Positions 2,251-63,695 of a stretch of DNA of 64,000 bases are shown here, piece by piece; positions within the stretch are counted from its first letter, which is position 1, and each line of letters starts with the position of its first letter. The notes under the pieces were generated by a model. The model worked only from the letters and a program-made list of their open reading frames with translations. It was not told where the DNA came from and made no database searches. The translations under genes were made by a program, and so were the position numbers. Location of the stretch: NCBI GenBank assembly GCA_036874045.1, contig JAZBRI010000010.1, positions 4,732,001-4,796,000 on the forward strand. The letters run 5' to 3'. The DNA comes from Cymodocea nodosa. Taxonomy: Eukaryota; Streptophyta; Magnoliopsida; Alismatales; Cymodoceaceae.

Positions 2251-2253
2251 TTT

Positions 2254-8794: not shown

Positions 8795-8903
8795 TATTAC
8801 TTAATTCAACGAACTTAGTTCGTTAAGTTATGGCCTAACTCCACGAGGATGTGTAGTAGCTATGTTAATTTTGTCTTTATTAATTTTTGTTTATGTCATA
8901 CAG
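8795..8903 (+). promoter_or_regulatory. dyad cluster and splice-acceptor-like site before F-box gene (G2)
   Basis: Dyads AACGAACTTAGTTCGTT and CTAACTCCACGAG lie at about 8,800-8,846. A T-rich run ending TCATACAG (8,896-8,903) precedes the F-box ATG by 11 nt. The acceptor-like CAG is conserved in G3 (62,541-62,543). The GTATGT donor seen in G3 is GATGTG here. Confidence 0.5.
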
Positions 8904-8914
8904 AATCACAACAG

Positions 8915-10051: not shown

Positions 10052-10134
10052 AGTATGATTCTGTGTTTTTAATGTTGTGTGTAGTCTGCATTTATTTTTA
10101 GAAAAAAAAAGGAAAACAAAAATATCAATCCAGT

Positions 10135-10205
10135 TTGTTGGTATCTATTCTGGGAAACCAACTAGCTTGCTTGTGAGCCACCAAAGGCATAGGAGCTTGG
10201 GTTCC
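10135..10205 (+). other. conserved noncoding block after F-box gene (G2)
   Basis: A block of about 65 nt is nearly identical to 63,825-63,900 in G3. GTTGGT pairs with ACCAAC around a loop, and GAGCC with GGTTCC further on, so it could fold. It is flanked by A-rich, length-variable sequence that is not conserved. Confidence 0.6.
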
Positions 10206-42067: not shown

Positions 42068-43510
42068 TTACATAGCTAAATACCAAAATTCATCTTCTAA
42101 GGCATCTTCAATTTTCTTAGGTTCTAGTAAAGAAACAAATGAAGAAGCACTACAAATGTTGACTACTGATGACCTAGTCCTAACTCCTTGATTAGGATCG
42201 CCTATTATCTGATCGATAGGATGAGATAAAGCATAACGCCAATTTCTATGTTGTTCCATATTTTCTATAGGTATGACATTATTTTCTTCTAAATTTTCAT
42301 CATTTAAGTTTATATTTCTTATTCCGTCAGATAACCTCTCAATTTCTCTATCAACATCATTTGATACCATTTCTGGGAGAATTTTTAAATCAAAGTTTTC
42401 AACATGTCTTAAATCCAAATGAGAATTTTCATGAAATTTCACATGTAGGGTTTCCTCAATGGTTTTTGTTAATTTATTATAAACTCTATATGCTTTACTT
42501 CTAATGGAATAACAAACAAAAATACCCTCATCTAATTTGGCTCTAAATTTGTCTCTTCGTTCCTTAGTGTTTAAAATAAAACACTTACAACTAAAAGGTT
42601 TTAAATAACTTATTTTGGGAACCCTGTTATACCATATCTCATAAGGAGTTTTATCTAAAATTGGTCTTAGATGTACTCTATTTATAACATAGCATGCTGT
42701 ATGAACTGCTTCTGCCCAAAGAAATAGTGGTAACTTATTCTCATTTAACATGATTCTGGACATTTCCTAAAGTGATCTATTTTTACGTTCTACTATCCCA
42801 TTTTGTGAAGGAGCTCTTGGAAATGAGTACCTATGATCTATGCCTAATTCTTCACAAAAGGTGTCCATTTGATCATTATCAAATTCTATACCATGATCAC
42901 TCCTAAGTTTTTGAATTTTAACATTTTGTTCATTCTGAACTTTATTACAGAATATTTTAAATATTTCAAAAACTTCAGTTTTATTAGCTAGAAAATATAC
43001 CCAAGTAAATCTAGAATAGTCATCAACTAGTACAAAAGTATAATGTTTACCTCCTATACTGGTTGTCCTAGTAGGTCCAAATAAATCCATATGCACTGGT
43101 TCTAATACTCTTTTGCTTGTTATTTCATTTAAACTTTTAAAGGATGTTTTATGTAATTTACCTAGTTGACATGCATCACACATAAACTCTTTTGAGTACT
43201 TAATACTAGGTAAACCTCTAACTAGATTCTTTTTAGACAGCTTTTGTAACAATTTTAAGTTTGAGTATCCTAGCCTTCTATGCCATAAAATAACTTCATC
43301 TGATTTTGCAATTAAGCAAGCATTATCTTTAATAATATCAGAAGGAAAATTCAGAATACAAACAGATCTTTTCTTGTATGCAGTAAATAAAACTTCATTT
43401 GTAGACATGTCAATAATTTTATAGGAATCTTTTTCAAAAATTACTCTATAAAACTTCATTAAAACAGGAACACTCAATAAATTAAAACCTAAGTTTTCCA
43501 CTAATAAGAC
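42068..43510 (-). CDS. copia K GAG-pre-integrase and integrase
   Basis: Two open stretches (43,501-42,767 and 42,763-42,068) separated by one TAA. LWHRRLGYSNLKLL and CDACQLGKLHK form the zinc-binding region. Catalytic residues: Asp in MDLFGPTR, Asp in LRSDHGIEFDND, Glu in QNGIVERKNRSL. LDKTPYEIWYNRVP and IRSKAYRVYNK follow. The last part is a variable linker into RT. All three catalytic residues are present. Confidence 0.93.
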
Positions 43511-45712
43511 ATCATTTATAAAGCATTTCTCAGTTACCTGAACCTTGCCAGACCCAAGGATATTTGTTTTGCTTTTATTTCCAAAGGTAACTTATCCATT
43601 CTTGGTCTTTATTATTTCTGTAAGTAATCGCATATCTCCAGTCATGTGGTTGGATGCTCCATTATCCATTATCCATTTTGATTTGTGTACCTACAAAATA
43701 GTCAAAAAGAGATTTTATCTCTTGGAACCCATTTTTGAGTGGGTCCAAGAATTTTAGAAAGAGTCATATCAAAATTATCAATATTTTTAAACTTCAACTT
43801 ATCTATTTTCTGATAATTATTTTTGTGTTTCTTTCTCTTAGTGTTATAATTATCAAAACATTTATCTCTATGTAAACCAGAGTTGAAATTTTCATTTCTG
43901 ACATTATTTGATTTCCAATATCCGATATTCTTTAAATATGAAGAAAATTTATCAAGAATATTAAGATTCTAAAATGACTTAGCTTGATTTTTCTGAAAAT
44001 TTCTTTTGTCATTCTTGCATCGTGTGCTATCATTTATATGCTGCATTTTATCAACTTGCACATATTTTTCTCCCTTTTTAATCACACATGGAATAGTTTG
44101 TCTTTTACTATTCTTAGTACTGGAAATAAAAACATTATTTTTAGTAGTACCATCATGCAATATATAATTTTCAGAAGATGCATCGTGTAAACCAATACCA
44201 TGTTTTTCTACATTTGATATTTTATTACTAAGTTCATTTGTTATAGTTTGACTATTATTCCATTTACTTAATATAGCCTTTTGATCATAGACCTTAATCT
44301 TTAACATATCAATTTCTAAATTTAAATCAGTAATAGTCAGTTCTAGTTTTTCAATTTCACAGATCATTTTCTTCTTATCAGCAATTAAATTTTCACAATT
44401 AGCATGCAATTTTCTTTCTATAGCAGTGAACTTTAAAATTTCCTATGCATGCCTTTGATTTTCTTCTTTAAATTTATTCAACATAGAGTTTAGAAAATCA
44501 ATCTTATTTTCAGATTCATCTAGCATTTCCTAGTGTTCTTTCTTTCTATTTTGACTTTCTTATATTTTCTGGCTAGTCTATTGTATTCAACAAGTAATCC
44601 ATCAAAACTATCAAAGTTAGCATTTTGATTAGTGGATACCTCACTGGAATTTGCCATAAAGCATACGTTTGCCAAATTTTCTTCTAAATTTGATGTTGAT
44701 GAGGATTCATTGTTTGATGTTGAATCCTTTCTTTCTTCACTTTGTGAAGCTGAAGAGTCATCCCATGTCACTTTAAGTGCCCTTCTCTTTCTGAATTTCT
44801 TACTCCTAAAATTCCTCCTCGAATTCTTCTTATCTTTGTTGAGTGGACAATCAATTTGAAAGTGACCCGGTCTATTGCACTTGTAGCATATGATTTTGTC
44901 TTTCGTGAATGACTTCTTCTCCATATCTCCAAATGTCTTTGCTAACTTGAAGTTCCTGCATTTCTTCAAAAGATTTCTAAATTTTCTAGTCAATAATAGT
45001 AAATCATCGTTAAAATCACTAGTGACTTCTAAGACTTTATCAGCCTCAAAAGCCAGATTCCTTCTAGGATTTTTCTCTTTTGGATCTAAATGTTGTACTT
45101 CATAGGCTGTCAGATTTCCTATGAGATCATCGAGAGTATATGTATTTAAATCTTTGGACTCTTCAATAGATGTTGTCTTTTGAGCCCAAATTTTAGTTAA
45201 AGATCTAAGGATCTTTCTTACCAAGTCTTTTTCCTCGAATTTCTTGCCTAAAGATTTAATGAATTTACAATCTCAAGAAAATAGGAAAACATGTCAGAGA
45301 TACATTCATTTTCGTGCATTTTAAAAAGCTCATATTTATGTACTAACATATTAATCTTAGATTCCTTGACCTGGTTAGTACCTTCGTTGGTAACTTCTAA
45401 TGCATGCCATATCTCATATGTAGTTTGATATGCAGAAACTTTATTAAATTGATCATGAGATAAAGCACAAAACAAGATGTTTAAACCTTTAGCATTTAGT
45501 GACATTCACTCCTTTTCATCAAAAGTCTAAGTATCATATGGAGTCGTAACTAACACTATAGGATTGCTAATTACATGCCATAGTTTGAAATCGATTGACT
45601 GAAAGAATACTTTCATCCTATATTTCCAATAGCCATAATTGCTACCTTCGAACATAGGAGGACGATTAGTGGTCTGTCCCTCAATCATAACTAAGATTTC
45701 AGTATTATCCAT
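43511..45712 (-). pseudogene. copia K gag and protease
   Basis: Gag starts at ATG 45,712; PPMFEGSNYGYWKYRMKVFF is the typical opening. The middle reads LFKMHENECISDMFSYFLE. The zinc knuckle CYKCNRPGHFQIDCP (about 44,840-44,885) is intact. A long coiled region follows (44,409-43,969). Protease carries WIMDNGASNHMTG near 43,640-43,680, with Asn in place of Ser in DSG. A frame change near 45,230 and several stops break it. Confidence 0.88.
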
Positions 45713-46965: not shown

Positions 46966-48420
46966 TAAATAACTACAAAACTAACAACCATATCAAAACA
47001 GAAAGAATTTACAAAAAAAGAACTATAACATGCGATTAAGAATAAAAATATTAACAAAAAGAAATATTTGTTTATTTATTTATTTAGTTTATTTTATTAT
47101 TCACTCATATGGATGGTGAAGGGTTGGTTCCTGAAGTCTCTCCTTGTGCCAAGTGCACACCTACCATGCAGGGATTTGGTATAGTGTTACTAGGTAATTC
47201 TCCCCATGCTCTACCTCTAGATGAAGTAGATAACCTATCAAACTTTGCTTCTAATCCCTTAATGATTTGGTCATGGCTAGCTAAAATGGGATTTACTTGT
47301 CTACTAACTTGAATTAGGGATTGAATCCCTTTCTCCATTTTAGTAAATCTTTTCTCTAGAGCAGACATTCTATCACTTAAAATTGGTTGAGCAGGTCCAT
47401 GATGCTTAGTATGGTTTCCAAGTGCTTTCGGTTGTTGCCACGAAAAATTAGGATGGTTTCTCCATCCTGGGGAATAATGTGATGACGGTTGGAATGACCT
47501 TTGTCCCATACCAATGGCATTCACTTCCTTAGACTATTGTCCTTGCAATGCAGGGCATTCTTCCATGATGTGCCTAGGAATTCCACATGCTATACACTTG
47601 ACTTCAACTACCTTATCCTTTTCTTTCTGTTGGCTTATAATTAAGTCTTCTACCTTCTTAACCATGGATGACATCCTAGCTTCCATGCCTACCATGGGGT
47701 CTATTGTGTGCATGCCCCTTGCTAAAGTTCTGTCAAATGTTCTATCTGATGAACTTTCCATTTCCATTGTCCTCTTAGCAAGGTCCACAAGTCTATTCCA
47801 TGCACTAACTTCATCAAAGGCATCTAGACATTCTTTAGAGAATCCAAATTTATTATCCTTTGATAATAAACTAGTTAAAGGACAGGCAATCTTACTAAAA
47901 TCTTTAATAAACCGTCTATAAAACCCAGCATGACCCAAAAATGCTCTTATATCCTTAATAGATTTAGGGGGTGGTAGGTTGGCTATCAAGTCTACTTTGG
48001 CCTTATCTACTTCCAACCCATTCTTAGAAACATGGCTCAACACAATTCCATATTGTACCATGAAGTGGCATTTCTCCCAATTTAAAACCAAATTTTTCTC
48101 TATACATCTTTTTAAAACCAATTTTAAATTCTTAAGAAACATATCAAAGGAAGATCCTACTATAGAAAAGTCATCTATAAAAATCTCTAAGAAATTATCA
48201 ATCATGTCCGAAAAGATTCCAGTCATACACCTTTGAAAAGTTGTAAGAGCATTACACAAACCAAAACGCATGCATTGGAATGCAAAAGTACCAAAAGGAC
48301 ATGTGAATGTGGTCTTCTCTTGGTCACAAGGTGCTATAGGAATTTGGTTATATCCAAAATAACTATCTAGAAAACAATAATATTCTTGCCCAGCTAACTT
48401 CTTTAACATTTGATCTATAA
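46966..48420 (-). pseudogene. gypsy J RT fused to gag
   Basis: On the minus strand the reading frame begins in gypsy RT (FIDQMLKKLAGQEYYCFLDS, catalytic FIDD, SFLGHAGFYRRFIKDFSK-like block) and, near 47,809, continues in the same frame into gag (AWNRLVDLAKRT, zinc knuckle CIACGIPRHIMEEC, HYSPGWRNHPNFSW). Gag ends at TGA 47,105 after ELPSNTIPNP. RNase H and integrase are missing. One TAG interrupts gag at about 47,534. The remaining 140 bp to copia K are AT-rich and noncoding. The RT side stops at 48,420, where G3 begins. Confidence 0.85.
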
Positions 48421-48480
48421 ATAGAGGTTTAAAAATTAAACAAGTTAAAAATAGAAGTTAGCAAATCAATACAAGTTTTC

Positions 48481-48501
48481 TAGCGCTGTTGCTGGGGATT
48501 G
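48481..48501 (+). promoter_or_regulatory. primer binding site, tRNA-Asp type (G3)
   Basis: TAGCGCTGTTGCTGGGGATTG, the complement of the plant tRNA-Asp 3' end with a few transitions, 6 bases after the LTR remnant. Confidence 0.88.
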
Positions 48502-48579
48502 AGATGCTAAGCAATTGTGAGTGCTATTTTGTTTTAATAGTAGGAGGAGTGTTGTGTGTTTTATTTTATAATTGAGAAT

Positions 48580-49610
48580 ATGGCATATGCTTATGCTCAA
48601 AGATTTCTAAAACCTATAGTTAGCATATGTGAATTCTGCAATTTGGAAGGTCACAACATCTCTGATTGTTTGAAACTAAGATGGTTGTAGATGGTTAGAT
48701 CACATCAACTACAAATGAATTATAATCAATATAATAGAGCTGAGTACGAGAATCCTATAGTTTACCCAACTAATGGTTAGTTTAGAATGTGTAATATGTT
48801 GAGAGACAAGGAAGTTTGGGATAGGTATGACAGACTAGAGCGTAGCTTAGAGCAAAACATGGAAAAGCTAGAACAACACAAGTTTTCTAGCGCCGTTGCC
48901 GTCCAATACATGTGTCAGCAACAAGAAGTCAACCAATTAAATTATAGGGAAGAATATACAGAACCTAAAATTGATGTTATTTATGAAACTGAAAAAATCA
49001 TAATGAAAATCGATCAAAAATTGAATGCAATGAGATTAGATGATTTGGAAAGAAAATTAAAAGCATTGAACGAATTTACAATGAAATTACAAGTTACGCA
49101 ACAGGAAAACACAAATGAAAAATTTAATGTTACAGATTTGCATAATTTGCAAGACATATAGAAAAGAGAAAATACCAATGCAATAGAATTTAAAGAATGT
49201 AATTTAAAACTAAAAATAGTTGAAGATCAAAATCACGAAAATGAAATACAAGAACATCATGAAAGTAATGAAAATCTGGAAGATGTATGTATAACATTAA
49301 GATCTAGAACTAATATACCACCAAGAATTCAAAAAGATAGTAACATGAAGGTGGATAAGAACAAAAATCAAAATGATAATGAAAATGTAATATTTGAAAA
49401 TTTAGAAATCAATGAAGAAAAATCTAAATCTGAAAATGAGACTAAAAATGATCAAATGAATGAAATGAAAGCAAAAGAAGCTTGTAAATTACAATCATTA
49501 GCACCCTATCCTGAAAGATTACAACAAACATTTCCTAAAAAATAAGAAAAAATTAGAGAAATTTTTGAAAAAGTACAAGTTAACATTCCTTTGTTAGACT
49601 TATTGTAGAA
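48580..49610 (+). pseudogene. zinc-knuckle ORF and gag linker (G3)
   Basis: Starts MAYAYAQRFLK at ATG 48,580. CEFCNLEGHNISDC is a complete CX2CX4HX4C knuckle. The coiled middle contains a 10-residue insertion relative to G1, encoded by a copy of the primer site (48,877-48,902). ITLRSRTNIPP near 49,300 matches the post-gag ITLRSG hallmark. Stops at about 48,690, 48,780, 49,159 and 49,543 break the frame. A TAG at about 49,607, before MPPCAKF, is shared with G1. Confidence 0.82.
48877..48902 (+). repeat. second, internal copy of the primer-site region
   Basis: ACACAAGTTTTCTAGCGCCG followed by TTGCC repeats the LTR-end/primer-site junction (48,472-48,492) and is closer to the canonical tRNA-Asp complement than the real site. 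It is in frame within the gag-like ORF and absent from G1. Confidence 0.8.
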
Positions 49611-50415
49611 AATGCCACCTTGTGCTAAATTTCTTAAGGATTGGTGTACTAAGAAAGGAGAGCGAAAAGTTTTAAGGAAAGTCTTTTTAGCTGAGCAAAG
49701 TAGTTCCCTATTTCTACCACAAATTCCTAAAAAGTTATTTGATCCTGGAATCCCTGTTATATCATGCACCATAGGAAATACCATTCTAGAAAGAACCTTA
49801 ATAGACCTAGGTGGAAGTATAAATGTTATGCCGAGTGATATATTTGCATCCTTAGGATTAGAAGGCTTAATCCCTACTAGAACTGTTATTCAATTAGCTG
49901 ATAAAAGTATAAGATACCCTAGAGGAAAAATATAGGATGTAATTAAAATCAAAAATTTCATATATCCTATTGATATTGTGATTTTGGATTCCCAACAAAT
50001 TAAGTATAAAAATCATGATACATCTTTAATTTTGGGAAGACCATTCTTAGCAACATCAGGGCTATTATAAATTGTAAAACTGGAGTAATGAAGTTAGCAT
50101 ATGGTAATGAGGATACTCAATTAAACATTTTCAAACTAGAAAAGTTTGAGGAATTAGAAATGTCCTTACATACTATAGACTTTTTAGAGGATGAAGGAGA
50201 TATGCTAGATGATGTGATTCAAGAAGAATTAAATAGGCAACTAAATTCTGAAACTTTAGAAGAAAGTGAAAGCATAAATGTAGAAGGAGATTAAGAAGAG
50301 ATTAACATAGTAAATGAAAATGTTCAATTAGGAGCTCTAGCTTTTGATGGTCAAAATTTAGATTTAAAGCCTTTACCTCCTGAATTAACCTATATATTTC
50401 TGAAAGAAAAATGAA
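49611..50415 (+). pseudogene. gypsy aspartic protease region (G3)
   Basis: MPPCAKFLKDWCTKKGE opens the block. The active site reads DLGGSINVMPS, with Gly in place of Ala at the fourth position of DLGAS. TAG at 49,935 replaces Glu of G1. One frame change occurs near 50,060 (LATSG), then LAYGNEDTQLN continues. An acidic tail leads to RT. Confidence 0.85.
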
Positions 50416-51530
50416 CATGTCCACTCATTATTACTTTAGATTTAAAAGAGGATCAAATTTCTAAATTAAAAGATGTAGTGAAAACTTATAAAGAGGCAAT
50501 AGGATGGACTATGACTAATATAAAAGGGCTAAGTGCAACATTATGCTATCACCACATATATTTAGAAGAGAATGCTAAACTAGTTAGAATTCCTGAGAGG
50601 AAATAGTGAAATGGTTAGATAATGACATAATTTATCCGATTTCTGATAGCTCATGGGTTAGTCCAATCCATGTAGTTCCCAAGAAATCAAGATTAACAGT
50701 TATTAAGAATGAAAGTTAGGACTTGATACCTACTAGAATTCAATTAGGTTGGAGAGTGTATATAGACTATAGAAAACTGAATGTTGTGACTAAGAAAGAT
50801 CAATTTCCCTTACCTTTCATAGATTAAATGCTAGAAAAATTAGTAGGACAAGAATATTTTTATTTCCTAGATGGGTATTCAGGATATAACCAAGTTCTAG
50901 TAGCATTAGAGGATCAAGAGAAAACAACTTTCACCTGTCCTAATGGAACTTATGCTTTTAAGAGAATGCCATTCAAATTATGTAATGCACTAGCCACCTT
51001 TCAAAGGTGTATGTAGGGCATATTCACTGGAATGACTGAAGATTTTTTAGAAATATTTATGAGTGATTTTACTATTGATGGAACTTCATATGAAGTGTGT
51101 TTAAACAATTTAGACCAAGTATTAAAATGCTGTGTGGAAAAAAGTTTGGTTCTAAATTGGGAGAAATGTCACTTCATGGTTAAACAAGGAATAGTCTTGG
51201 GACATGTTGTTTCAAAGAAAGGGTTAGAAGTAGATAGAGCTAAAATAGAAGTAATTTCTAATCTACCAGAACCTAAATCAGTAAAAGATATTAGATCATT
51301 TCTAGGACATGCTGGATTTTATAGAAGAATTATTAAAGATTTTAGCAAAATAACTAAACTTTTAACTAATCTATTAAAAGATGTCCCATTTAACTTTGAT
51401 AAAAATTGCAAAGAAGCATTTTTCAAGCTTAAAACTAGCTTAATTTCAACTCCTATAACACAAGCACCTGATTGGAGCCATCTATTTGAATTAATGTATG
51501 ATGTATCTGATTTTGTGTAGGAGTAGTGTT
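50416..51530 (+). pseudogene. gypsy reverse transcriptase (G3)
   Basis: Same protein as in G1 but more damaged. A deletion near 50,600 removes about 20 residues before WLDNDIIYPISD, and stops lie at 50,718, 50,826 and 51,013 (CAA/CAG in G1). FLDGYSGYNQ is intact, but the catalytic block is FMSDF rather than FMDDF, so one active-site Asp is lost. SFLGHAGFYRR is present. Confidence 0.88.
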
Positions 51531-51930
51531 GGGATAGAAGATAGAAAAATCTCCTAGAGTGATTCATTATGCAAGCAAAACATTAAATGATACTCAAGTT
51601 AATTATACAACTACTAAAAAAGAGTTGTTAGCTGTTGTGTTTGCCTTAGAAAAGTTTAGATCATATTTGATAGGAGCTAAAGTGATAGTATACACGAATC
51701 ATTCAGCTTTAAAACACCTAATAGCAAAGAAAGAGATTAAACCTAGATTGATTCGATGGATATTATTATTACAAAAATATGAACTAGAAATTAAATATAA
51801 AAAAGGTTGTGAGAATGTAGTAGCAGATCATTTATCAAGATTACAAATAGAAAAATCAAATATTGAAATTAAGGATAATTTTCCTAATGAACAATTATTG
51901 ACCATCAACACAATACCTTGGTATGCAGAC
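51531..51930 (+). CDS. gypsy RNase H (G3)
   Basis: [30 protein letters not shown], then [14 protein letters not shown], a near-complete Ty3/gypsy RNase H opening in the frame that continues into the integrase N-terminus. The Asp of the TDH motif is Asn here (TNHSAL). TAG just upstream (about 51,531) is shared with G1. Confidence 0.85.
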
Positions 51931-53213
51931 ATAGTTAATTACTTAGATACTAGTTTAAGACCTAAGAATTGGAATAGACTCGATAAGAAATTATTCTTTT
52001 CAAGAGTAAAATATTACTATTGGGAAGACCCATACTTATTTAAGAAATGTCCTGATCTAGTTTTAAGGAGGTGTGTTCCAAAAACTGAATATTAGAGCAT
52101 ATTGTCATTTTGCCATGACCAAGCATGTGGAGGGCATTTTGGTTCAGGGAAAACTACTACCAAAATTCTACAATGTGGATTTTATTGGCCAACATTATTC
52201 AAAGATGCTCATAAATATTGCTTAAGTTGTTTAAGATGTCAACAAATAGGAAGAATATCAAAGAGGAATATGATGCCTCTTAAGCCTATTGTTGAGGTTG
52301 AAATCTATGATGTGTGGGGTATTATGGGTCCATTTCCTATGTCTAATCAATTTAATTATATATTGTTGGGGGTGGATTATGTATCTAAATGGATAGAAGC
52401 TATTCCTACAAAAACTAATGACAACAAAGTGGTAATACATTTTATAAGAACTAATATAATTGCCAGATTTGGAATACCTAAAGCTATTATCAGTGATAGA
52501 GGAACTCATTTCTGTAATAGAAGTTTTGAAGCCTTAATGAAGAAATATCGAGTAAATCACAAAATTGCAACATCATATTATCTGCAAATAAGTGGACAAG
52601 TAGAAAGTGCAAACAAACCAATTAAGTTAATCTTAGAAAAAGTAGTAAATCCTACTAGAAAAGATTGGGCTAATAGATTAATAGATGCACTTTGGGCTTA
52701 TAGAACTACTTATAAGACAAGCTTAGGTATGATACCTTTTAGGCTAGTATATGGAAAAAGTTGTCATTTACTAGTTGAAATTGAACCTAAAGCTTATTGG
52801 GCATTAAAAACTCTGAACACTAATTTAAATCAAGTTGTTGAAAACAAGAAAATGTAATTGATTGAATTAGAAGAATTTAGGAATGAAGCTTATTCAAAAA
52901 TTGTAAGAGAAAAAGAGAAAATGAAGTTCTGGCATGACAAGAAAATTATTCCAAAAACCTTTGAAATAGGACAAGAAGTATATCTTTACATGACTGGACT
53001 CCATAACCATCTAGGAAAATTAAGATCTAGATGGGCAGGACCTTACATAATTCAAAATATTTATTCCTATGGAGCTATTGAAATTGAAATCCTAAAAATC
53101 AGAATATATTTAAAGTAAATTGACAAAGACTTAGACCTATTTTGAAAATACCAAAAAGTTCCTTTGGAATTATAGAAGAAGTAAGAGTAAAGGACTACTC
53201 GAGCTTTACTTAG
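51931..53213 (+). pseudogene. gypsy integrase (G3)
   Basis: The HHCC domain is intact (CHDQACGGHFGSGKT, CLRCQQIG). The first catalytic Asp is deleted: DVWGIMGPF replaces the GIDFMGPF of G2, a loss of 6 nt. Asp in IISDRGTHF and Glu in GQVESANKP remain. Stops lie at about 52,096 and 52,855; a frameshift near 53,090 ruins the last residues. Spacing to the next spacer is as in G2. Confidence 0.9.
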
Positions 53214-53277
53214 TAAGAAATTACCTAAGTGTGTGTTATATATGTAAAAAAAAAAAAAAAACATATTTAAGCATAGT

Positions 53278-53575
53278 CACGATTAAACCGAAAGGAATTA
53301 TCAGTTTTATTGAAACATATTTTAAAAGAAAAAAATCATTGCAGTTCAACCGATAGGATCCATCGATCTGATTGAAACATAAAAATATAAAAAAAAATTA
53401 TATATTATATTAAGTATAAATGTCAGTTTTACCGAAGCATAGTATCGATTCAACCAATAGAAGAAAAAAAGAGTATTTAATTTTGGTTCAACCGAGGAAT
53501 ATAACGATTTGACCGAAATGCTAAAATGTTGAAAAATTAAGAGTCGGTTAGACCGAAAATTCTTTGGTCTAGACT
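53278..53575 (+). repeat. array of CGGTT-N-AACCG half-dyads (G3)
   Basis: Members include GATTAAACCGAAAGG, GTTCAACCGATAGG, GGTTCAACCGAGG and CGGTTAGACCGAAA, collinear with 6,470-6,770 in G2. No ORF. Confidence 0.65.
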
Positions 53576-53624
53576 AAAGTAAAAATTATTATTATAAGTA
53601 TTTTTATTAGTAATAACTTTACAA

Positions 53625-53780
53625 GAAGTCTGTTGAGTTACACTTAACTCAACAAACTTACTCCGTTGAGTCTAGGATAAGTTAACGAACTTACCCCATT
53701 GAGTTAACTATAACTCAACGGAGTACTATAGTTAAGTCTACAGACTTAGTTCGTGGAGTTAACTGTAACTCCACAGAGAA
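53625..53780 (+). repeat. dyad cluster before ORF-X (G3)
   Basis: Includes ATTGAGTTA-ACTA-TAACTCAAC (about 53,699) and GTGGAGTTA-ACTG-TAACTCCAC (53,753-53,774, perfect arms). Followed by a TTATTTATAC stretch and, about 170 nt later, the ORF-X ATG. Confidence 0.85.
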
Positions 53781-54597
53781 GTAAATAAGAGAGCGAGAGT
53801 TTGCCTGGGAAAATGATCCGATTACCCTCCTAAAACTTAGGGTTTATTTATACTAAAACTTAGGATTTGGGGGCATTATCTGCAGACTCATTTAGAACTT
53901 AGAACAGTAGAGATCAGAGCGATTCCGTTCCATTCCATCTCCATGATGACAACGATGACGCCAGAGTTCTAGGAGGAAGCAGTTACATGACTAGATTTCT
54001 CAAAGAATTTGAAGAATGGCATACAAGGCAGAAGATCAAAAATACAACACGGGAAAAAGAACTACAAAAAGTAGAATCTAACATTTTCTACTAGAGGAAA
54101 GTTTTAGTAAATTTAGGTATAAAAATACCTTAGATTATAGAAACAAGAATCAAAGTAGCTATAGAAGTTGCATTAAATAGAGAGAGAAAAATTAGACCAA
54201 ATAATGAAGTTGCCCTAGAATTGATCCAACGTAAGTCCCGACTATGGTTCAAAAGACGTATTGGTGGACATGCCTGGTGGGCAATCTGGGAACAATAGAG
54301 GAAAGCATATGAAGAACATGCAACTGAAGAATAAGAGGAACCGACTATTGAAAGACTATTTCTGAGGAACAGTAGTTAGGACCATCCATTCCACTACTAA
54401 GGCCGTTAGGAAGAGCAACATTTTTGGGGCCATCTATGCCAAAGGAATGGAAAGAATTTGTAGAGCTAGTTAAAGTTGCCAAGAGCCAAGGAAATTCTGA
54501 GGATATGATTATGGCAAAAATGCATTTACTATATGATGCACTCTATAGGAAAAGGGCTGAAGAAAAGTTGAAGGTCCAATATAAAATTAAAATAGAG

Positions 54598-54899
54598 TGT
54601 TATGCGAAGAAAAGCACGGAAAGGGAGAAGCTTGGACTCGTGGAGAAGAAAAAAGACAAATGGGAAAGACGTGTGAAGCAAATGTAAAAACACCAAGGTT
54701 TTACGTGGTTCCCCAATTGGGTACGTCCACAGATGGAGCTCAACTGAATGATTCTCTAGGTGATCACAAAGGGATACAAGATTCAACATCATCTCTAAGC
54801 ACACGTTGGGGGTCTATTTATAACATTTGTGTACCCCCAAGTGGCTAAGGACAAAACTACCCCTATGTGTAACAAACTAATTCAAGACACATAATAACA
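54598..54899 (-). repeat. copia M 3' LTR (302 bp)
   Basis: TG...CA, with TATAAATAG on the minus strand at 54,814-54,822. Differs from the other LTR by only a handful of bases and a 3-bp indel. Confidence 0.95.
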
Positions 54900-54973
54900 A
54901 TCTCCACCTTGCCTTGAATTTACAAACTTCACCTAGAACCAAACAAATTTCCATCTTCAAAAGACCCGAAGGG

Positions 54974-55282
54974 TCAACTATAAGCAAACACATTAAGTAA
55001 GTCTAAGCAATGCTTAAACTTGCTTTCAAGAACACCTTTCGTAAACATATCGGCTGGATTGTCATGTGTGTTGATCTTCAAAATCTTCACGCGATCTTCT
55101 GTTCTAAGAAAGTGATAACGAACATCAATGTGCTTTGTCCTGTCATGAAACACATTGTCCTTCGTTAAGCTGATGGCATTGAGACTATCACAGAAAATTT
55201 CTACTTTATCATATCGCAGACCAAAGTCTCCAAGTAACCCCTTCAGCTTCAGCCATGATTCACATGGTAATACGCAGGACAT
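54974..55282 (-). pseudogene. copia M RNase H end
   Basis: WLKLKGLLGDFGL, IFCDSLNAISLTKDN, HIDVRYHFLR and NPADMFTKG are the end of a Tork/Tnt1-type copia RNase H. Upstream it is joined at about 55,275 directly to the integrase block NYSKLKVFGCPAYYHV, so the intervening RT and early RNase H are deleted. Confidence 0.85.
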
Positions 55283-56014
55283 CCAAATACTTTCAATTTG
55301 GAATAGTTAGCCGCTTTATCCATACTTCATAAGGGATCTTGTCGCCAATTGCATTGGATGGCGACCTATTCACCAAATAGGAGGCTGTGTTAACAGCTTC
55401 AGCCTTAAAACATTTTTCCAGCTCAACATGAGAGAGTATACACTAGCTCTCTCCAACAACGTCCTATTAAGACGTTCTGCAACTCCATTCTGTTGTGGAG
55501 TTCCCCTGATAGTATAATGCCTAGTTATGCCTGCATTTGCTAAAGAGAGTTGTTGAGACGGTCCCCAACAATCTGCATGGACATAATCCAACTTTCCCTT
55601 GGTAGAATGTTCTTCTCTTCTAAAGGAAACACGTTTCTGTTTCCCATAGATACAATGCCTGCATAAATCAATATCTGTAAAGATATGACCATCTAACCTG
55701 CCAAGCGTACTAAGCTTCTACATTCCCTTTAGACCCAAATGTCCTAACCTAGAATGCCAAATAGCTGACATAGACTGTTGATCACTTATTGTCGTAGCTA
55801 TCGATCCAATGATAGGTTTGCCCTGAAGAATGTATAAAGGTCCATTCTTGATTCCCTTCATTACCATTAGGGAACCTTTCAAAATGTGAAGTTTACCTCC
55901 TCCACCTAAAAAACTGAAACCTTTCTGATCAAGAGCCATTAGCGAAATAAGGCTCTTGCCTAACCTTGGCACATGCCAAACATTCTCCAAGACTTTGATC
56001 GTCCCATCATGCAT
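55283..56014 (-). pseudogene. copia M GAG-pre-integrase and partial integrase
   Basis: IWHSRLGHLGLKGM and CRHCIYGKQKR form the zinc region. MDYVHADCWGPSQ holds the first Asp. Then an internal deletion leads straight to TRHYTIRGTPQQNGVAERLN, which holds the catalytic Glu, so the second Asp block is missing. The end reads into NYSKLKVFGCPA. Confidence 0.85.
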
Positions 56015-56998
56015 CCTAAATCTGACAGATCCAACACCTGTTCTGTCACAAACATCATTATCTGCTAAAGTGACCTATCCACCATCTACCTCCTCATATG
56101 TATGGAAATATTCTTTGTTGGGAGTCATATGATTTGATGCACTAGAATCCATAATCCAACTCTGATCAGAGTAGACACTACAGCATACAGTAAGGGAGAA
56201 ATCACAGTCAGACCCTAAGTCTCCATTTTCAGCGACTGTTGCATTTCCCTTAATCTTCAATTTAGGGCAGTTTACCTTCCAATGCCCCTTTTCCTTGCAA
56301 TAATTGCAAGTGTCCTTGGAAATTCTACCTCTGAACTTACTTCTGCCTCTGCGCTTGTTGTCTCTTCTACTCTGCCATCCTTTAGACTCTGAATGATGCA
56401 CTGTCAAACCTGATCCGCTAGCATCATTGCTACCATGTGTAGCCAAATGTCTCAATTCTCAAGAATGAAGACTCAATCTTACCTCCTCCAAAGTAATAGA
56501 ATCTTTGCCAACCACAAAAGATTGCACAAAATTCTCAAAGGAGAGAGGAAGAGATACCAATAAGATGAGAGCAGCATCCTCATCTTCCACAGTAACACCA
56601 ATGTTCCTCAACTCCATGAGAATGGTGTTGAGCTGATCCAAATGTTGCTTCAATGGTGTACCTTCCTTCATTCTTAGAGAGAACAGCCTTTACTTCAACA
56701 ACAGCTTATTCGTAAGAGACTTAGTCATATACAGAGATTCTAACTTATTCCAAAGACCCAAAGCTGTATTTTCATCTGCTACCTCAATGATTATCTCATC
56801 TGATAAACATAGCAGAATAGTCGAATGTGCCTTCTCCTCTTGCTGTTCAAATTTGGCAGACTTCTTATCTAGGGTTGTCTCCACATTTAATGGAGTCCAA
56901 ATACCCTACTGTTTCAAAAGTTCTTTCATCTTAATCTACCACAAACTAAAGTTGTTCTTGGCATTGAACTTTTCAACTTTCAAGGCTGAAGATGCCAT
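56015..56998 (-). pseudogene. copia M gag and protease
   Basis: Starts MASSALKVEKFNAKNNFSLW at 56,998, the common Tork-type gag opening. NKLLLKxRLFSLRMKEGTPL and SFENFVQSFV follow; the zinc knuckle is CNYCKEKGHWKVNCP. Protease reads WIMDSSASNHMTPNKEYF: the Gly of DSG is Ser. Stops at several Trp/Gln positions break the frame. Confidence 0.88.
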
Positions 56999-57204
56999 GA
57001 CAGTAGAACAACACAAACACAGCAAGCAAATACCAAATAATTCGGACAACAAATAAGCACAAAATTTGTTATCCCAAAGTTGCAGATGAATCTTTCATTC
57101 AAAATATCCCAACTAACAAATGCAGCTACCAAATTCAAAAGATCACTCGCGAAGAATCCAAAACAAACGAAGATGAGCCAAGATCACACGTATTGTCTCA
57201 AAAT

Positions 57205-57320
57205 TCCCAAAGAACTTCAAAGAATTCCAAAGAACTTCAAAGAATTCCAAAGAATTGCTAAAGAATTCTAAAGAACTTCAAAGAATTCCAAAGAACAACT
57301 AAAGAATTCCAAAGAACTGG
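57205..57320. repeat. tandem repeat of CAAAGAATTC-type units
   Basis: About a dozen tandem 10-12-bp units alternating CAAAGAACTT, CAAAGAATTC and CTAAAGAATT in the leader of copia M, between gag and the GC-rich tract. Confidence 0.85.
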
Positions 57321-57539
57321 CCACACTTGATCTACCAAAAAAGACCAAAAAAGAATTCCGCAAAATCACAACAACAAACTTCAAAAGTTATGATAGAAAT
57401 TCTTACTACTCGTTTCACCAACGTGGAAACGACAGATGACCAAGTGCACGTTGTCAACTTCAAGATCGCAGACGTCGAACAAGAATTCCAACCACGGATG
57501 CTTTGTCACAAACACAGGTCGCGAACAAAGATCGCGTGA

Positions 57540-58070
57540 GCAAACCGCAAGCGCTGGTGTCAAACAAAGAACGCAAGCATTGATACGTGAATGCTGGTGT
57601 CCTGCAGAACGCAAGCAATCAGGCACAGGCGCTGGCACAAGCAATGACGCAGACAAATGAACGCAGGCGCTAGCGTCGGGCGAGGATGCGAGCGGTTGCG
57701 TGCGGGCGCTGGCGCAGACGAAGACGCGGGTGAATACGCGCGGGTGCAGGCGTGGGTAGAGACGCAGACGTTCACGCGAGCAAGAACGTGGGCGAATGCA
57801 CGTGGACGCTGGCACGGGCGGAGACGTAGACGATCGTGCGAGCAAGAATGCGAGTGAATGCACGCGGACGCTGGCGCGGGCAAGAACGTAGGCAAATGTG
57901 CGCGTTAGGTGTGGGCATCGAGCGTTGGGCGCGGGCATCGGGCGCGGGCATTGGGCGCGGGTGTCAGGCGTTAGGTGCGGGTGTCAGGCACAGGCGGTGG
58001 GCGTTGGGTGCGGGCGTCGGGCACGGGCGTTGGGCGCAAGTGTGGGCGTTCGCTTGTGCGTTGGCTAAGA
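57540..58070. repeat. GC-rich degenerate minisatellite in the copia M leader
   Basis: Dense GC-rich units such as GGCGCGGGCATC, GGCGCTGGCGC and GCGGGTGTCAGGC at about 12-36 bp periods, in sharp contrast to AT-rich surroundings. Overlapping ORFs on both strands here are Arg/Gly/Ala-rich consequences of the repeat, not genes. Confidence 0.85.
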
Positions 58071-58120
58071 TCTTTCTTTTCTTCTTTCAAGCCTAATCCA
58101 CGGCCAACTCCTCAAGCTTC

Positions 58121-58132
58121 GCTTTGATACCA
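58121..58132 (-). promoter_or_regulatory. primer binding site, initiator tRNA-Met type (copia M)
   Basis: TGGTATCAAAGC on the minus strand, two bases from the LTR end. One transition from TGGTATCAGAGC. Confidence 0.9.
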
Positions 58133-58134
58133 CT

Positions 58135-58439
58135 TGTTATGCGAAGAGAAGCGCGGAAAGGGAGAAGCTTGGACTCGTGGAGAAGAAAGAAGAAGACAAA
58201 TGGGAAAGACGTGTGAAGCAAATGCAAAAACACCAAGGTTTAACGTGGTTCCCCAATTGGGTACGTCCACAGATGGAGCTCAACTGAATGATTCTCTAGG
58301 TGATCACAAAGGGATACAAGATTCAACATCATCTCTAAGCACACGTTGGGGGTCTATTTATAATATTTGTGTACCCCCAAGTGGCTAAGGACAAAACTAC
58401 CCCTATGTGTAACAAACTAATTCAAGACACATAATAACA
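58135..58439 (-). repeat. copia M 5' LTR (305 bp)
   Basis: TG...CA. TATAAATAG lies on the minus strand at 58,354-58,362. Next to the primer site and the TAGAG duplication. Confidence 0.95.
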
Positions 58440-60023
58440 TAGAGCAACATCAAGAAGCAGCTAGATCAATGGCTGCAAAAGAAACTAAAGCTGGTCCTTT
58501 GAGACTAGTAATTATAGAAAAAGTAAAATAGGAAGAGCCAGTACTTGTGGCTCGAGAGCCTGTAGTGCCTATTTTTGTAGATTTAATCTTAGAAGAAGAA
58601 GAAGAAGATCAAGCACAGTTAATTAGAAGAAGGAAAGGAAAATAGATAGTGCCTGAGCATCAAGAAGAGATTAAACCTGAGCCAGCAATATCAGTAGGAC
58701 CTGTAGAGCTAATTTTTGTAAACCTGCTATCTGAATTTGTGGAGCAGGAACAGCAGCAGCAAGAGCAAAGAGAAGAAGAAAAATAGGCTGAAACTAATCT
58801 GTAGCCTATACCAACAGAAGATACTAAAATTAGGGCAGAAGTTGATTTACCCGTGACTCCATCCCAATCTGCCACAGAATCAGAAAGAATAGTGACAATG
58901 CAGATTAGTAGTTAGGAGGAAGAAGAAAGAGAAGAAACTAAACAAGAAGCTGAACAAGAGCATATGGAACAAAAAGGAAATATCTCGATAGATTCCACTA
59001 AAGAGCAAGAGACTCTTTAGCAAATTTTGAAAAGAATTCAAGAAAGAAGAGTGGAGAGTTCTGTCGGCTTACCACCACAGACAGAAGTAGAAGCAAAAAG
59101 ACTGGAATCTCCGGATCATTTCTAACAAAGTCAAGTTTAGCACATGGAAGAGGAAATTCAAGAACAAACCCCTCTAAAGCAACAAATTCAAATTCCTGAC
59201 CCAACTAAAGCAACAATTTTGAATGAAGTATACTTTTGGAGTCAGGAAGCATATAATAAATATCAAGAGATTAGGGGTTATGATATTATTTACAGTAGAC
59301 CAGTAAACTAGGATAGTATGTAGGAAATCAAAGAATTATTTGAGTTCTAGGGTCTACTGCAATTTATTTCTCAACAGAAAGGGTATGCAGTATACGAAAA
59401 TCTAGTGTCCTATTTCTATGCAAATTTAAGAGAAGAAGAAGGACAATCAATTTCCAACGTGGAGCAAGCTGATGTACAGATAACACCAGAGCTTTAGGAT
59501 TGAAAAATGAAGGGAAAGAAATTTTGGAAAGCACAACTACCATTGAGTGGACAGAATAGGAAATCAAGGATAGTTTAGCTATCAATCCTAGTGTGCCATT
59601 ATTAAATAGACTAAAGCACTTAAATGGTAAAGCACACATGGTAGCTAACATTTTGATTATAAATGTCTACCAACGACAAGGCCATGATATTGACTAGTGG
59701 GCCACATATGCAGTTGTGAATAAAATCCAAATTAACTAGTGTCAAGTCTTCCTGTCCAAGATAAAATCTGCAAAGAAGAAATTATTTTATGGAGATTTGA
59801 TACCTATATTGATGGTGGACTATATTGACTTCACAAAATGGACATCTAAAAGGATAAAATCAAGAGCCATTTTAGTGAAGGAATATAAAAACTACAATGC
59901 TGCAGCTGTTGAAGTACTTGTACCTTCTAGAGACATTATTGGAGGTGTAGATCGGATAAATCAATTAGAGCAACAACTAGAAAAACTTTAGAAGGAAGTA
60001 GATGAACATACGAGAAAGGACTA

Positions 60024-61157
60024 ATTGTATTATTCGTCTACTTATATTTGTATTGAAAAATATCTAACTGAATGTAAATGTAACTATTCATATAAATGAA
60101 TGTTTGAATTTCAGATGTTTTTACATTCGTGTTTGAGAATGAATGATATAATTGATGAACTATATTGAATATTATATAACTATTTGAACAATGTGCAAGA
60201 CTATTTAAAAGATTTACAAATTTTCTAAATGACATGGTCAAATGCAGGATAATTAGTTAATGCTGAAAATATCTGCATGCTGAAAAGTAAAATGTAAATT
60301 CTACACAACAAGAAATGAACTGTAAGTTAAATATGCATATAATGTTTAGATTTAAATGAGTTAAATTAGAAACTGCATTAATGACATGCATTTAACTTTA
60401 TTTAAGTTAACAAAATGCAGAAGAAAAAAAAAATATATAGAAGTTAATATGAGGAGTAAGTTTTAGAAATTTACTAAGTGTTAACTCAACAGAGTAATTC
60501 TGTTGAGTTAACCTTAACTCCATGAGGTCAATAATAAAATATAAGGTCACTCTATTGAGTTAACTGTAACTCAATGAGGTTAGTCTGTGGAGTTAGCAAA
60601 CTAGTAACCGAAGCTAGTCCGTTGAGTTAACTATAACTCAACGAGGTTAGTTAGTGGATTAAGCTAAATAGTTATTATTTTATCCACAAACGAAACTTCG
60701 TGGGTTCAGAAATTATTGAAATTTGAAAGTAGAAGTGGAACACGTATCCATAAAAATAGGAACCACATTGCATGTTACAAGACACGTTCTTGTAATGAGA
60801 TTCATTTGCTTAATGGACGTGCATTATAAATATAGAACAGAATGTTATTTACAAGTTACCAACACTTTTGAAAGAAAAGAAAATTTGTTGGGGAACTGGA
60901 AGGAGAAGCAGCTAATTCAACTTCATCCGTCAACAACTATTTACTGAAAACAAAGCTTCAAACTATTAATCTTCTACTATTTTACTTTATGTTAAGAGTT
61001 TATGAGCACATGAACTCGTTCTCTTAGCACTAAACGATTAGTAAGAACACTTACACATGATTATTCAACATAGAGGCATACTGAAATATTTTCTGAATTG
61101 GACTTTAACGAAATCCTTAGGGGTGTAGCTAACCTTTCTTTAAAAGAGAACGAAGAT
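60024..61157 (+). promoter_or_regulatory. spacer before capsid gag with dyads and TATA-like box (G3)
   Basis: Noncoding. A dyad cluster at 60,475-60,665 includes CCGTTGAGTTA-ACTA-TAACTCAACG (about 60,619). ACACGT and GGACGTGC motifs follow, then TATAAATA at 60,825-60,832, about 330 nt before the first ATG of gag (61,158). The combination resembles a plant promoter. The 74-codon ORF across it is not supported. Confidence 0.5.
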
Positions 61158-62334
61158 ATGACTGCTCTAGTAGAAAAATCATTAGGGGAAATTCTGTATC
61201 CTAAATTAGTTGATGAACCTTCATGTATTCGATTGCCAAACTTTGAGGGAGATAGGTTTGAACTAAAATCTAATTATATTAGTCAATTGCCACACTTTCA
61301 TGGATTAGAAAGAGAGGATACCTATTATTTCCTTAGAGAATTTAACAAAGTTTGTCAAATGATGAAAATGTCGAACATGAGTATTGATGCTATTAAACTT
61401 AGATATATCCCCTTTGCTTTAAAAGACACAGCTAAGAGATGGTTATATACTTTATCGCCTGATTCAATTTCTGCATGGACTAAATTTTGCTCTATTTTTT
61501 TGGAAAAATATTATCTAACACATCAAACGATTAAAAAGGAAAAAGGTGTAGCCAAAAATAGGGAGAATCATTTTGGAAATATTTTGAAAGATTTAAAGAT
61601 TTAATAACTCAATGTCCACATCATGCAATGAGTAAAACACAATTAATAGTATAATTTATGAAGGCATAGATGTTTCAGCGAAATTTTTATTAGAATCTAC
61701 TTGTCATAATGGACTTTTAAAACTATGTTGTGAAGAAGCATGGGCATATTTAGAAAACTTTGCAAAAAGAACTACATAGTGGGAAAACTCGACGGAAGCT
61801 ATTACAGATAAAAGAATATTGCCAAGAGGAATGCATGAAATAGATTCAAGCACTATGCTTGAAGTTAAATTAACTAAATTAACAAAGAAAATAGAAGAGT
61901 TATTAAATCAAAAGCTAGCAGAAAAGAATGCAAATGTTAATGACTTAGATATTATTTATGCTAGAAACCAAAAAGATAACTTTGGAAATTCTTATAACCC
62001 TAATTGGAGAAATCACCCGAATCTATCTTGGAGAAACAACAATTTCCAGGGAGGAGAAAATATAAATGACAAAAATATAAGTTATGAAGCATTAATTGAA
62101 CAAGGATCTAGAATAGAGAAGTTAGAAAAGATAATTCAACAATTAAACAATCATCTAGATCTTGTATTTGGAAATGCTACCATTCAAAATCAAAATATAA
62201 ATAGAATACCCCCTAGATAGAAGGAATCAATAGAAGTTAGACCTATGGGAGGATTGCCAATGCAAGCAATACCTAACCCTGTCAATAGAGTTGTTAATGA
62301 AATTGATACCTCCTAAGGGAGGGAAGTTGAATGA
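61158..62334 (+). pseudogene. gag capsid domain located 3' of integrase (G3)
   Basis: First ATG is 61,158 (MTALVEKSLGEILYPK); the open frame extends a little upstream without ATG. RLPNFEGDRFELKSNYISQL, KLRYIPFALKDTAKRWL and SYNPNWRNHPNLSWR identify Athila/Tat-type capsid. There is no zinc knuckle. The frame is lost near 61,550, recovers by 61,819 and ends at TGA 62,332 soon after IPNP. One TAG at 62,218 is CAG in G2. The zinc knuckle and ITLRSG blocks that should follow are at the other end of the element (48,580-49,610). Confidence 0.9.
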
Positions 62335-62429
62335 AGTAGTATAACTAAAGTAACTATGTATAATATAGTAAGTAGAAAAATATAAAAGAAAAAAAAATGT
62401 AATTTTAATTGTAGTTAGTAATATCGTAG

Positions 62430-62543
62430 AGTTATTACTTAACTCAATGAACTTAGTTTGTTGAGTTATGACCTAACTCCACGAGGGTATGTAAATAGCT
62501 ATGTTAATTTTGTCTCTGTTAAATTTTTGTTTATGTTATACAG
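62430..62543 (+). promoter_or_regulatory. dyads and possible 57-nt intron before F-box gene (G3)
   Basis: Dyads at about 62,435-62,486, then G|GTATGT at 62,487 and TTATACAG at 62,536-62,543. If spliced this would be an unusually short plant intron; alternatively the acceptor serves a distant donor to make a subgenomic F-box mRNA. The acceptor is conserved in G2, the donor is not. Confidence 0.35.
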
Positions 62544-62554
62544 AATCACAATAG

Positions 62555-63695
62555 ATGGAATTGATGAAATTACCACTAGATGCACTGAGGGAAGTACTAA
62601 GTAACCTGTCAACTAAAGATCTGTGCAAATTGTGTTGTGTATCAAAGGAAATCAAAGACTGTGTTAGAGAAAAATATTTTCATGGACTACAAGCTGCAAA
62701 ATGACTAAGATTAGAGATGGATTTTTATGGAAGTCATTTAATCGTAGTTCAATTAGCTATGAATATCTGAATATGGAAGAAAATGCTGGAATTCCACCCA
62801 ACACATTAGAAGGAATAGATCATATTATGGGGATAGATGAAGGATTAATTATTTACAGAACCAAACCAAGGTATGCAATTCTGTTACCTGACATTTTGAT
62901 TAGAAATCCTATCACAAGAGAAGAATGGAATATACGAAGGCCTAATAGATTTGAAGTACCAACTAAAAATTGTGGGTTAGCTTTAACATTTTCTGATAAA
63001 AATTCAACCATTCCTGAAAGATTGTATTACTGGAGACCAACTAGAAATTCGGATGACGATTTATGCTTAAGTGCGTATGATTTTCTGCATAGATCTTGGA
63101 TTGAAAATACTATGATATATCTAGGACAAAAAGCATTAATTAACAACATACATGTCATACTTGATGGATATATATATATCTACTCACAGATATATCAATT
63201 GCATTTAGATCTGATTTATACATAGTAAGCATAGACGGTTATCATGATGACTTTATAGAAATATTGCTTATACCTAGTGATATAACTAAACCACCGTTTG
63301 TAGAATATGATAAAATTCAATTAGGAATGTGGTATAATGAATATGATGATCCTACTTTATGTTTGATAAGATGGTAGGATGAATGGAGGAAATTTTAAAT
63401 ATGGATTATGAAAGACCTAAATGAATAGAAGTGGGAAGAGGAATATATTGAATTAGATGTAGAAATAGAAACAGCTACATTATCTTGGAGTAGAAAAGGA
63501 TCCCTTTCTGCATTTCATTTCATTAATGGAAATACACTTATATTTAGTATTGATAACATACTACAAGTTTGCAAGTTAAAAAGGAAAACGGGCTGCATTA
63601 AAACAGAATTAATAGCAAGAATAATTATGCCTAAAAAGTTTGCTTGGACTAACACGTTTATTCCATTTGTTACTACTTTTCAATCATGTTCTTAA
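62555..63695 (+). pseudogene. F-box-like protein gene carried by G3
   Basis: Same gene as at 8,915 in G2, same distance behind gag. F-box: LREVLSNLSTKDLCKLCCVSK. A one-base deletion at about 62,700 shifts the frame before MTKIRDGFLWKSF; a further break lies near 63,185, and stops lie at 63,376, 63,397 and 63,427 (Trp/Gln codons in G2). Apart from these breaks it is collinear with G2 to the terminal TFQSCS and TAA 63,693-63,695. Confidence 0.82.

Follow-up and report, generated by a model that had tools for sequence, protein, structure and literature searches.

A Ty3/gypsy lineage of Cymodocea nodosa in which capsid is coded behind integrase

Does the gene order read at this locus, in which the capsid part of gag lies behind integrase, belong to a retrotransposon family or to a single disturbed copy? 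The locus is the window C10:4732001-4796000, by which we mean the whole 64,000-nucleotide stretch of Cymodocea nodosa DNA analyzed here. It contains three long terminal repeat (LTR) retrotransposon copies, G1, G2 and G3; genome-wide searches covered the 374.6-Mb genome. We conclude, with a probability of roughly 0.86 for the explanation as a whole, including a predicted intron and mode of translation, that these copies belong to an Athila-like Ty3/gypsy lineage whose gag moved, probably once, from before protease to behind integrase. The gene order, the element boundaries, the target duplications, the constancy of the order among scored copies and the selection on capsid can be read directly from the DNA, and a common origin of the permuted families is supported by a tree. 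The full order would be LTR, tRNA-Asp-type primer binding site (PBS), a first open reading frame (ORF1) coding for zinc knuckle, linker, protease, reverse transcriptase (RT), RNase H and integrase, then an ORF called ORF-X, gag, an F-box gene, a polypurine tract (PPT) and LTR, with ORF-X and the F-box gene seen in family G, to which the window copies belong.

Self-comparison of the window identified G1, G2 and G3 as copies of a single family, with G1 (minus strand) 89% identical to the 5' half of G3, and G2 identical in DNA to G3 at 85% across the integrase-spacer stretch and 88% across capsid-F-box. On the plus strand, G3 begins with the final bases of a truncated 5' LTR (48433-48473), which match the LTR end of G1 and whose exact end was inferred from copies B, C and D described below. 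The PBS-like sequence TAGCGCTGTTGCTGGGGA (48481-48498) lies directly 3' of these last ~40 bases of the family LTR and is followed by ORF1 (48580-53210), which contains the zinc knuckle, linker, TLRS motif, protease, RT, RNase H and integrase and is interrupted by stops and frameshifts. Read from the DNA, its ATG at 48580 precedes a CX2CX4HX4C knuckle and a stop, and the protease-RT-RNase H-integrase stretch extends to ~53.2 kb. There follow a spacer and ORF-X region (53246-61000, ends approximate) with a nested insert of ~3.5 kb, the 3' gag (61232-62331), which runs from capsid to the WRNHPN block and a PNP end, and the F-box gene (62457-63692), with its ATG at 62555 and an upstream ACAG acceptor ending at 62543. 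The capsid domain PF03732 was matched in G2 (E value 3e-12) and fell just under the cut-off in G3 (22.5 bits, cut-off 24.1); the integrase domains found were rve in G2 and rve plus H2C2 in G3. RT was above the Pfam cut-off in G1, RNase H was also matched, and aspartic protease matches were below cut-off. Pfam and self-comparison thus confirm the order integrase, capsid, F-box that a first-pass annotation had claimed for G3.

The same annotation held that G2 (5098-12494, plus strand) repeats the series integrase-spacer-capsid-F-box. The order and the identity to G3 stand, but its short spacer is a deletion, since fuller copies have 2.3-3.2 kb between integrase and capsid, coding ORF-X. G2 consists of integrase (5179-6414; PF00665, 93% identical to G3), 3' gag (7564-8694, from capsid to WRNHPN and PNP), the F-box gene (8915-10048, ATG at 8915; PF00646, E value 6e-9; FBA_1 below cut-off), a 3' non-coding region preceding the 3' LTR (10049-11400), and a 3' LTR (11400-12494) that has lost its first part. 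Splicing as the source of the two gaps of G2 was ruled out by the absence of GT..AG; the gaps show microhomologies, CCA in the integrase-capsid spacer and CTA in the 3' LTR. PF00646 was also matched in the F-box gene of locus L037, and a Pfam search with the G3 F-box pieces 62668-63222 and 63429-63692 gave zero matches. G1, spanning 5097 down to 1 on the minus strand, has a 5' LTR (3353-5097) starting TGTTTAGAATG, a PBS (3328-3345) and an ORF1 (1-3246) with a mutated knuckle, protease, RT and RNase H, which continues into locus L010 with integrase; a capsid-less 5' ORF directly after the primer site is therefore confirmed for G1.

Three smaller observations concern these copies. Within ORF1 of G3, at ~48878-48901, the PBS neighbourhood is repeated in coding sequence (acaagttttctagcgccgttgccg); this repeat is absent in G1 and may have arisen when reverse transcription went wrong at the primer site. 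The ~3.5 kb nested insert in the G3 ORF-X region is flanked by ~300-bp direct repeats that are 97% identical (54598-54899 and 58135-58439). The palindromic stretches CCGTTGAGTTA and TAACTCAACGG recur in family G LTRs, spacers and gene leaders, for example at 6830-6980 of the window.

A local survey, in which 230 kb fetched around the window extended it to 294 kb, was made with 12 DNA probes and then with protein probes. Integrase came first in all five same-strand copies that have both integrase and capsid (A, C, D, G2 and G3), and at all nine local 5' ends (A, B, C, D, F, G1, G3, G4 and one at 4693980) the primer-site region leads into a capsid-less ORF1; in B and G4 the match to the 5'-end probe starts 50-60 bases in. 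In copies A, B, C and D, the interval that follows integrase and precedes the next gene codes for ORF-X, and the CX2CX4HX4C knuckle of ORF1 was also matched by script in copy A. A diverged local copy on the minus strand (4844516-4840565) has the order RT, RNase H, integrase, capsid as well. Together with families H and K, described below, these copies support the first-pass proposal of a permuted gag, with capsid 3' of integrase, as a family-wide order.

Both outer LTR ends are kept in copies B, C and D, which are flanked by 5-bp target duplications (CTGGC, ATATT and GTACT, respectively). Their LTRs start TGTTTAGAATG (TGTTT) and end AAACA or GAACA, with the PBS behind, and the two LTRs of each copy are 94.1%, 92.7% and 93.5% identical over their longest aligned pieces; copy B has both outer ends and the duplication, but its 3' LTR is without its first part. 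A purine tract of the GTATGGGGGAAG type stands 5' of the 3' LTR in A, C and D and, altered, in G3. C and D, which also carry capsid, thus each have two LTRs, PBS, PPT and target duplication, and the LTR that we sought between integrase and capsid in these two copies, as the first-pass annotation had proposed, was not found. That the true termini lie between integrase and capsid and the presumed LTR is internal, as tandem copies could mimic and as the short CCGTTGAGTTA-type repeats common to LTR and spacer might hint, is scarcely credible when the bounding repeat has these ends with a PBS behind it, a purine-rich tract precedes the 3' repeat in four copies, and matching duplications flank three of three copies with both outer ends. 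Copy D also has an 874-bp gap, for which splicing was ruled out because it has no GT..AG.

The search for family G copies with capsid right after the primer site was extended genome-wide with a query from G1 (LTR end, PBS, ORF1 and protease). All 40 copies scored, the best of 5,572 candidates, were colinear with the query over PBS, ORF1 and most of protease, with no capsid between them (40/40), so that neither these nor the nine local 5' ends include such a copy. A capsid DNA search returned 40 scored rows, the best of 4,717 candidates, all 92-100% identical. Among the family G matches listed, there were 10 same-strand capsid-pol pairs within 15 kb, of which eight have capsid downstream, and four of the five downstream protease-capsid pairs are spaced at 6.8-7.2 kb. 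The ORF-X/capsid donor sequence, discussed below, occurs at 3,244 genomic places and its reversed-pattern control at 0, which argues that the permuted arrangement is not due to chance.

The order is not confined to family G. Two further families, H (L002, L007 and L008) and K (L001 and L003-L006), with capsid proteins 54-64% alike, account for the eight top-ranked PF03732 loci, and integrase lies upstream of capsid in all eight, within the 3.3 kb read. Eight more loci, sampled stepwise down a list of 150, were all family G with the F-box gene after capsid; the 3.4 kb read at these lower-ranked loci contained no protease match, integrase being beyond reach there. For family H, 40 rows were scored with the stretch from integrase to gag; 20 of them match it over its full length, 18 at 92-100% (query itself included) and two at 73-74%. 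When these were paired with the list from a separate PBS-ORF1-protease search, protease was upstream on the same strand in 14 of the 20 (13 at a distance of 2.42-2.46 kb, one at 4.3 kb), and the whole PBS-ORF1-protease stretch was present in 11 of those 14; among the matches listed, there was no reversed same-strand pair of integrase-gag and protease within 6 kb. The 18-mer TGGCGCCGTTGCCGGGGA occupies the corresponding PBS position in family H (L032:1629). Since H and K have the same order, it must be older than family G. It is possible to picture instead a one-off rearrangement or nested insertion, by which a capsid-F-box fragment of another element landed 3' of integrase in a few copies, and the region is indeed rich in nested elements and broken copies. 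We regard this as very improbable, because the order is common to G, H and K despite a capsid protein difference of about 36-46%, because the ORF-X/capsid donor is found at thousands of places, and because C and D, bounded by LTRs and target duplications, and family H contradict it.

Family H ORF1 opens with a zinc knuckle (CTKCMLFDHENDEC), and its 3' gag retains capsid and a knuckle of its own (CEGCGLDNHSIDQC); no knuckle pattern was found in the 3' gag of K (L001) or G. Between the integrase stop and the gag ATG of H and K, acceptor-like stretches ending TTTTTCTTAGCAG/G or CTTGGTATTTCAG/G (slash, putative splice site) were recognized by eye in eight loci, altered in L002 and L003. In eight rows (e.g. 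C5:4944867 and C1:5934716) the family H leader match stops at query base 1090. A leader splice was rejected as the cause, because L043 and L044, two of three junctions that were read, are internal deletions in which the leader passes, within an AT-rich run, directly into sequence 3' of the gag stop; the third (L042) has G-type F-box sequence at that place. These eight rows are probably non-autonomous derivatives that lost ORF1 to gag, as seen in the two junctions.

Gag relatives from other plants (21 hits, including Tasmannia, Prunus and Cannabis proteins) were used to place the cut. In all five plant proteins compared (P0004, P0005, P0009, P0010 and P0011) the part resembling the 3' gag precedes the part resembling ORF1, which is the usual order. 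On P0005, in which LRSG is at 454, the family G 3' gag aligns with residues 13-434 and the ORF1 of copy A with 449-666; this puts the cut at roughly the position given by the earlier annotation, after IPNP and resuming at ITLRSG. The ORF1 of G1 overlaps the gag half. The 5' ORF has its own N-terminal zinc knuckle, so that gag was moved and partly re-made, not merely cut. A capsid tree of 24 rows was constructed with plant proteins as the only references and the badly cut rows P0014, P0015 and P0017 excluded. The 15 permuted rows of this genome form one clade (support 100/97), with the Tasmannia protein adjacent (93/85). A single origin of the permutation is therefore favored, not proven, as the rows of the tree are few and include near-copies.

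Whether the displaced capsid is still selected as a protein was judged from the ratio of nonsynonymous to synonymous substitution rates (dN/dS) among local copies, using pairs with dS > 0.12, which are not independent, and setting stop codons aside. The median dN/dS was 0.22 for capsid and 0.26 for the remaining gag, compared with 0.30 for protease, 0.31 for RT and 0.32 for integrase; the two ORF1 parts 5' of protease gave 0.31 and 0.46, two parts of ORF-X 0.52 and 0.23, and the F-box gene 0.34 and 0.46. Capsid is thus constrained like RT or more, which indicates that selection acted on the protein of the moved gene during the spread of the family. In a two-component system, by contrast, canonical relatives would supply capsid in trans and the 3' gag would be a relic or accessory protein. 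Copies without capsid were mobilized (copy B, and the 209 junctions described below), so capsid can act in trans, and the majority of copies are broken. Yet the constraint on the 3' capsid, its frame, open over 454 codons in L034 and L037, and the absence of any canonical locus among the 16 PF03732 loci (eight with integrase upstream and eight of family G, a small, best-scoring sample of 4,640 candidates) make such a system quite unlikely.

In family G the capsid ORF appears to lie within an intron. The predicted donor, CTG/GTATGT, is behind ORF-X, and GTATGT occurs ~30-45 bases 5' of the capsid ATG in 12 of 14 capsid-bearing copies (A, C, D, E and L034-L041, not G2 or G3). The predicted acceptor, ACAG/, is before the F-box ATG; in 10 of 13 capsid-bearing copies this ATG has, 9-11 bases 5' of it, a T-rich run that closes with ACAG or ATAG, and the run is altered in L035, C and E. 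L038 was left out of the acceptor count because of a deletion at the site; that deletion (L038 1231-3261) creates an open frame of 677 residues in which 3' gag and F-box gene are fused. In the eight copies with both sites placed, the predicted intron is 1,426-1,594 nt long and encloses the whole capsid ORF. Copy B, flanked by its target duplication, reads AAGCTTCAAACTG joined directly to AATTGACAAAT, the exact product of intron removal, and the 32-base spliced junction was found at 209 genomic places (at most 3 mismatches; reversed-pattern control 0). These exact intron-loss junctions indicate at least one insertion, and probably several, of sequence reverse-transcribed from spliced RNA, and a predicted intron around the family G capsid ORF, with re-insertion of spliced RNA, is strongly supported.

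A competitor of this intron is an ordinary deletion amplified as a non-autonomous subfamily. One event followed by amplification could yield 209 copies, and other gaps in these families (in G2, D and an H derivative) are without GT..AG. However, the breakpoints fall exactly on a strong donor (G/GTATGT) and a T-rich ACAG/ acceptor that are conserved in uncut copies, and all eight combinations of three variable flanking bases are present among the places listed, which suggests, without being proof, several origins. We therefore consider an amplified deletion unlikely and prefer splicing. ORF-X itself, in copy B, has a weak match to PF20167, 'putative plant transposon protein' (E value 9e-5, 22.8 bits, cut-off 45).

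How such an element might express its genes can be sketched. The full-length RNA would be both genome and mRNA for a pol-first polyprotein, and capsid would be made as a separate protein from intron-retaining RNA, probably a shorter transcript that starts internally or is spliced upstream. Removal of capsid by splicing would yield the F-box mRNA, and the ratio of capsid to pol would then be set by RNA processing and not by Gag-Pol frameshift or readthrough. A conserved leader donor was sought in the family G LTR with a hand-made weight matrix on six copies; there were several candidates, none decisive. The excess of Gag over Pol is usually explained by the gag-pol order. As that order is broken here and the element still reached thousands of copies, judged from the 3,244 donor places, Gag:Pol must have been set in some other way. 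It is interesting to speculate, at what we would put as even odds, that a whole LTR-retrotransposon clade gave up the Gag-Pol fusion, with pol translated first from genomic RNA and gag an env-like 3' gene expressed from processed RNA, and that in the dominant family a captured F-box gene harbors gag in a regulated intron, one splice decision switching the RNA between shells and a factor that may redirect host protein degradation.

Several points weigh against the proposal that gag moved behind integrase and is expressed from there. The genome-wide lists are made of best-scoring copies and are no random sample. Most of the copies read carry stops and frameshifts, and the ORF1 knuckle is intact in A and G3 and mutated in G1 and C. 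The ORF1 of G1 aligns on P0005 from residue 365 and so overlaps the gag half by 70 residues. In 2 of the 10 listed same-strand family G pairs capsid lies 9.4 and 11.0 kb upstream, perhaps because the two partners belong to neighbouring copies. For family H, five of the 20 copies had no partner among the matches listed, and at C21:6921858 only the leader is found, 4.5 kb upstream, with an opposite-strand protease piece adjacent. Family K is known from five loci of 3.3 kb that reach no 5' end. Finally, capsid would have to be translated as a late cistron.

We take the 18-mer TGGCGCCGTTGCCGGGGA and the PBS of G3 to be tRNA-Asp-type primer sites, and the capsid to be kin of the WRNHPN-type Athila gag, the TLRSG block presumably likewise. 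The order RT, RNase H, integrase is that of Ty3/gypsy, and Pfam found one RNase H on the pieces from RNase H to integrase of G3 and family H, followed by Integrase_H2C2 (in G3, on the next piece). On the basis of PBS type, single RNase H and the WRNHPN and TLRSG blocks that we assign to Athila, the element works like, and probably descends from, Athila. In the excerpted descriptions, Athila is set apart from Tat by the absence of an additional RNase H. The Ty3/gypsy domain order in the excerpts of PMC6317226 is GAG-PROT-RT-RH-INT; here gag does not precede protease, and since this defining order is lacking we call the element an Athila-like variant and not a standard member. Athila ORF-1 (pfam03078) is, in the same excerpts, a non-defining extra ORF present in 16% of Athila elements (PMC6317226), and PF03078 was not matched at E 0.1 in three ORF-X pieces of copy B.

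As far as the excerpts cover them, members of the Athila clade, which is part of the OTA superclade (e.g. Athila4, Calypso, Cyclops and Diaspora), share with these elements a PBS, of tRNA-Asp type there and putatively so here, a few bases behind an LTR of 1.5-2.5 kb, a CX2CX4HX4C knuckle, one RNase H and, in relatives, an extra ORF behind integrase. Diaspora, with a tRNA-Asp PBS and Athila kinship, is described there as having a single ORF that codes for gag, protease, RT and integrase in succession, as are Athila and Calypso, whereas the elements of this genome code capsid in a gene of its own, located behind integrase. A long region with additional genes between pol and the 3' LTR is also a feature of Retand, Ogre and other plant elements, but in the portions cited their extra ORFs are not capsid (PMC11963269, PMC7264820). 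Splicing favors Gag in BARE1 (Ty1/copia) too, where, however, spliced RNA is the source of a 5'-encoded Gag; the same excerpt argues that BARE excludes spliced RNA from replication, while here the spliced junction is found integrated (PMC3735527). In Bagy2 and other env-like elements a 3' gene is expressed from spliced subgenomic RNA (PMC3735527, PMC7264820), but in the parts cited that gene is env-like and not capsid.

LTR elements are described, in the excerpt of PMC7264820, as sharing the order LTR-gag-pol-LTR, and our literature searches, whose coverage left out most subscription journals, recognized no pol-first, gag-last LTR element. A systematic survey of plant LTR elements states that those whose domains stood in an unexpected order were, as likely mispredictions, 'in every case removed' (PMC6317226). 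A gag-last type could therefore be common and unseen, and order-based filtering is a blind spot for such elements. The group described here is very abundant and has its capsid gene behind the enzyme genes, in the main family within an apparently removable intron. What is new is that the family G capsid ORF is situated between conserved predicted splice sites, and the traces of the intron make the RNA logic directly testable.

Other features of the window surround G3. Next to its truncated LTR, on the minus strand, lies a piece of a related permuted element (47534-48421) in which RT is fused to capsid via an internal deletion. The stretch 47534-53100, comprising G3 sequence and this adjoining RT fragment, recurs 64 kb away at C10:4842400-4848500; as the two are 99% identical over 2.5 kb and have the same kind of junction between RT and LTR tail, they look like a segmental duplication. 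A Ty1/copia copy on the minus strand has the usual order, with a knuckle and weak gag match at 44520-45224, integrase at 42767-43501 and RT at 41225-41842.

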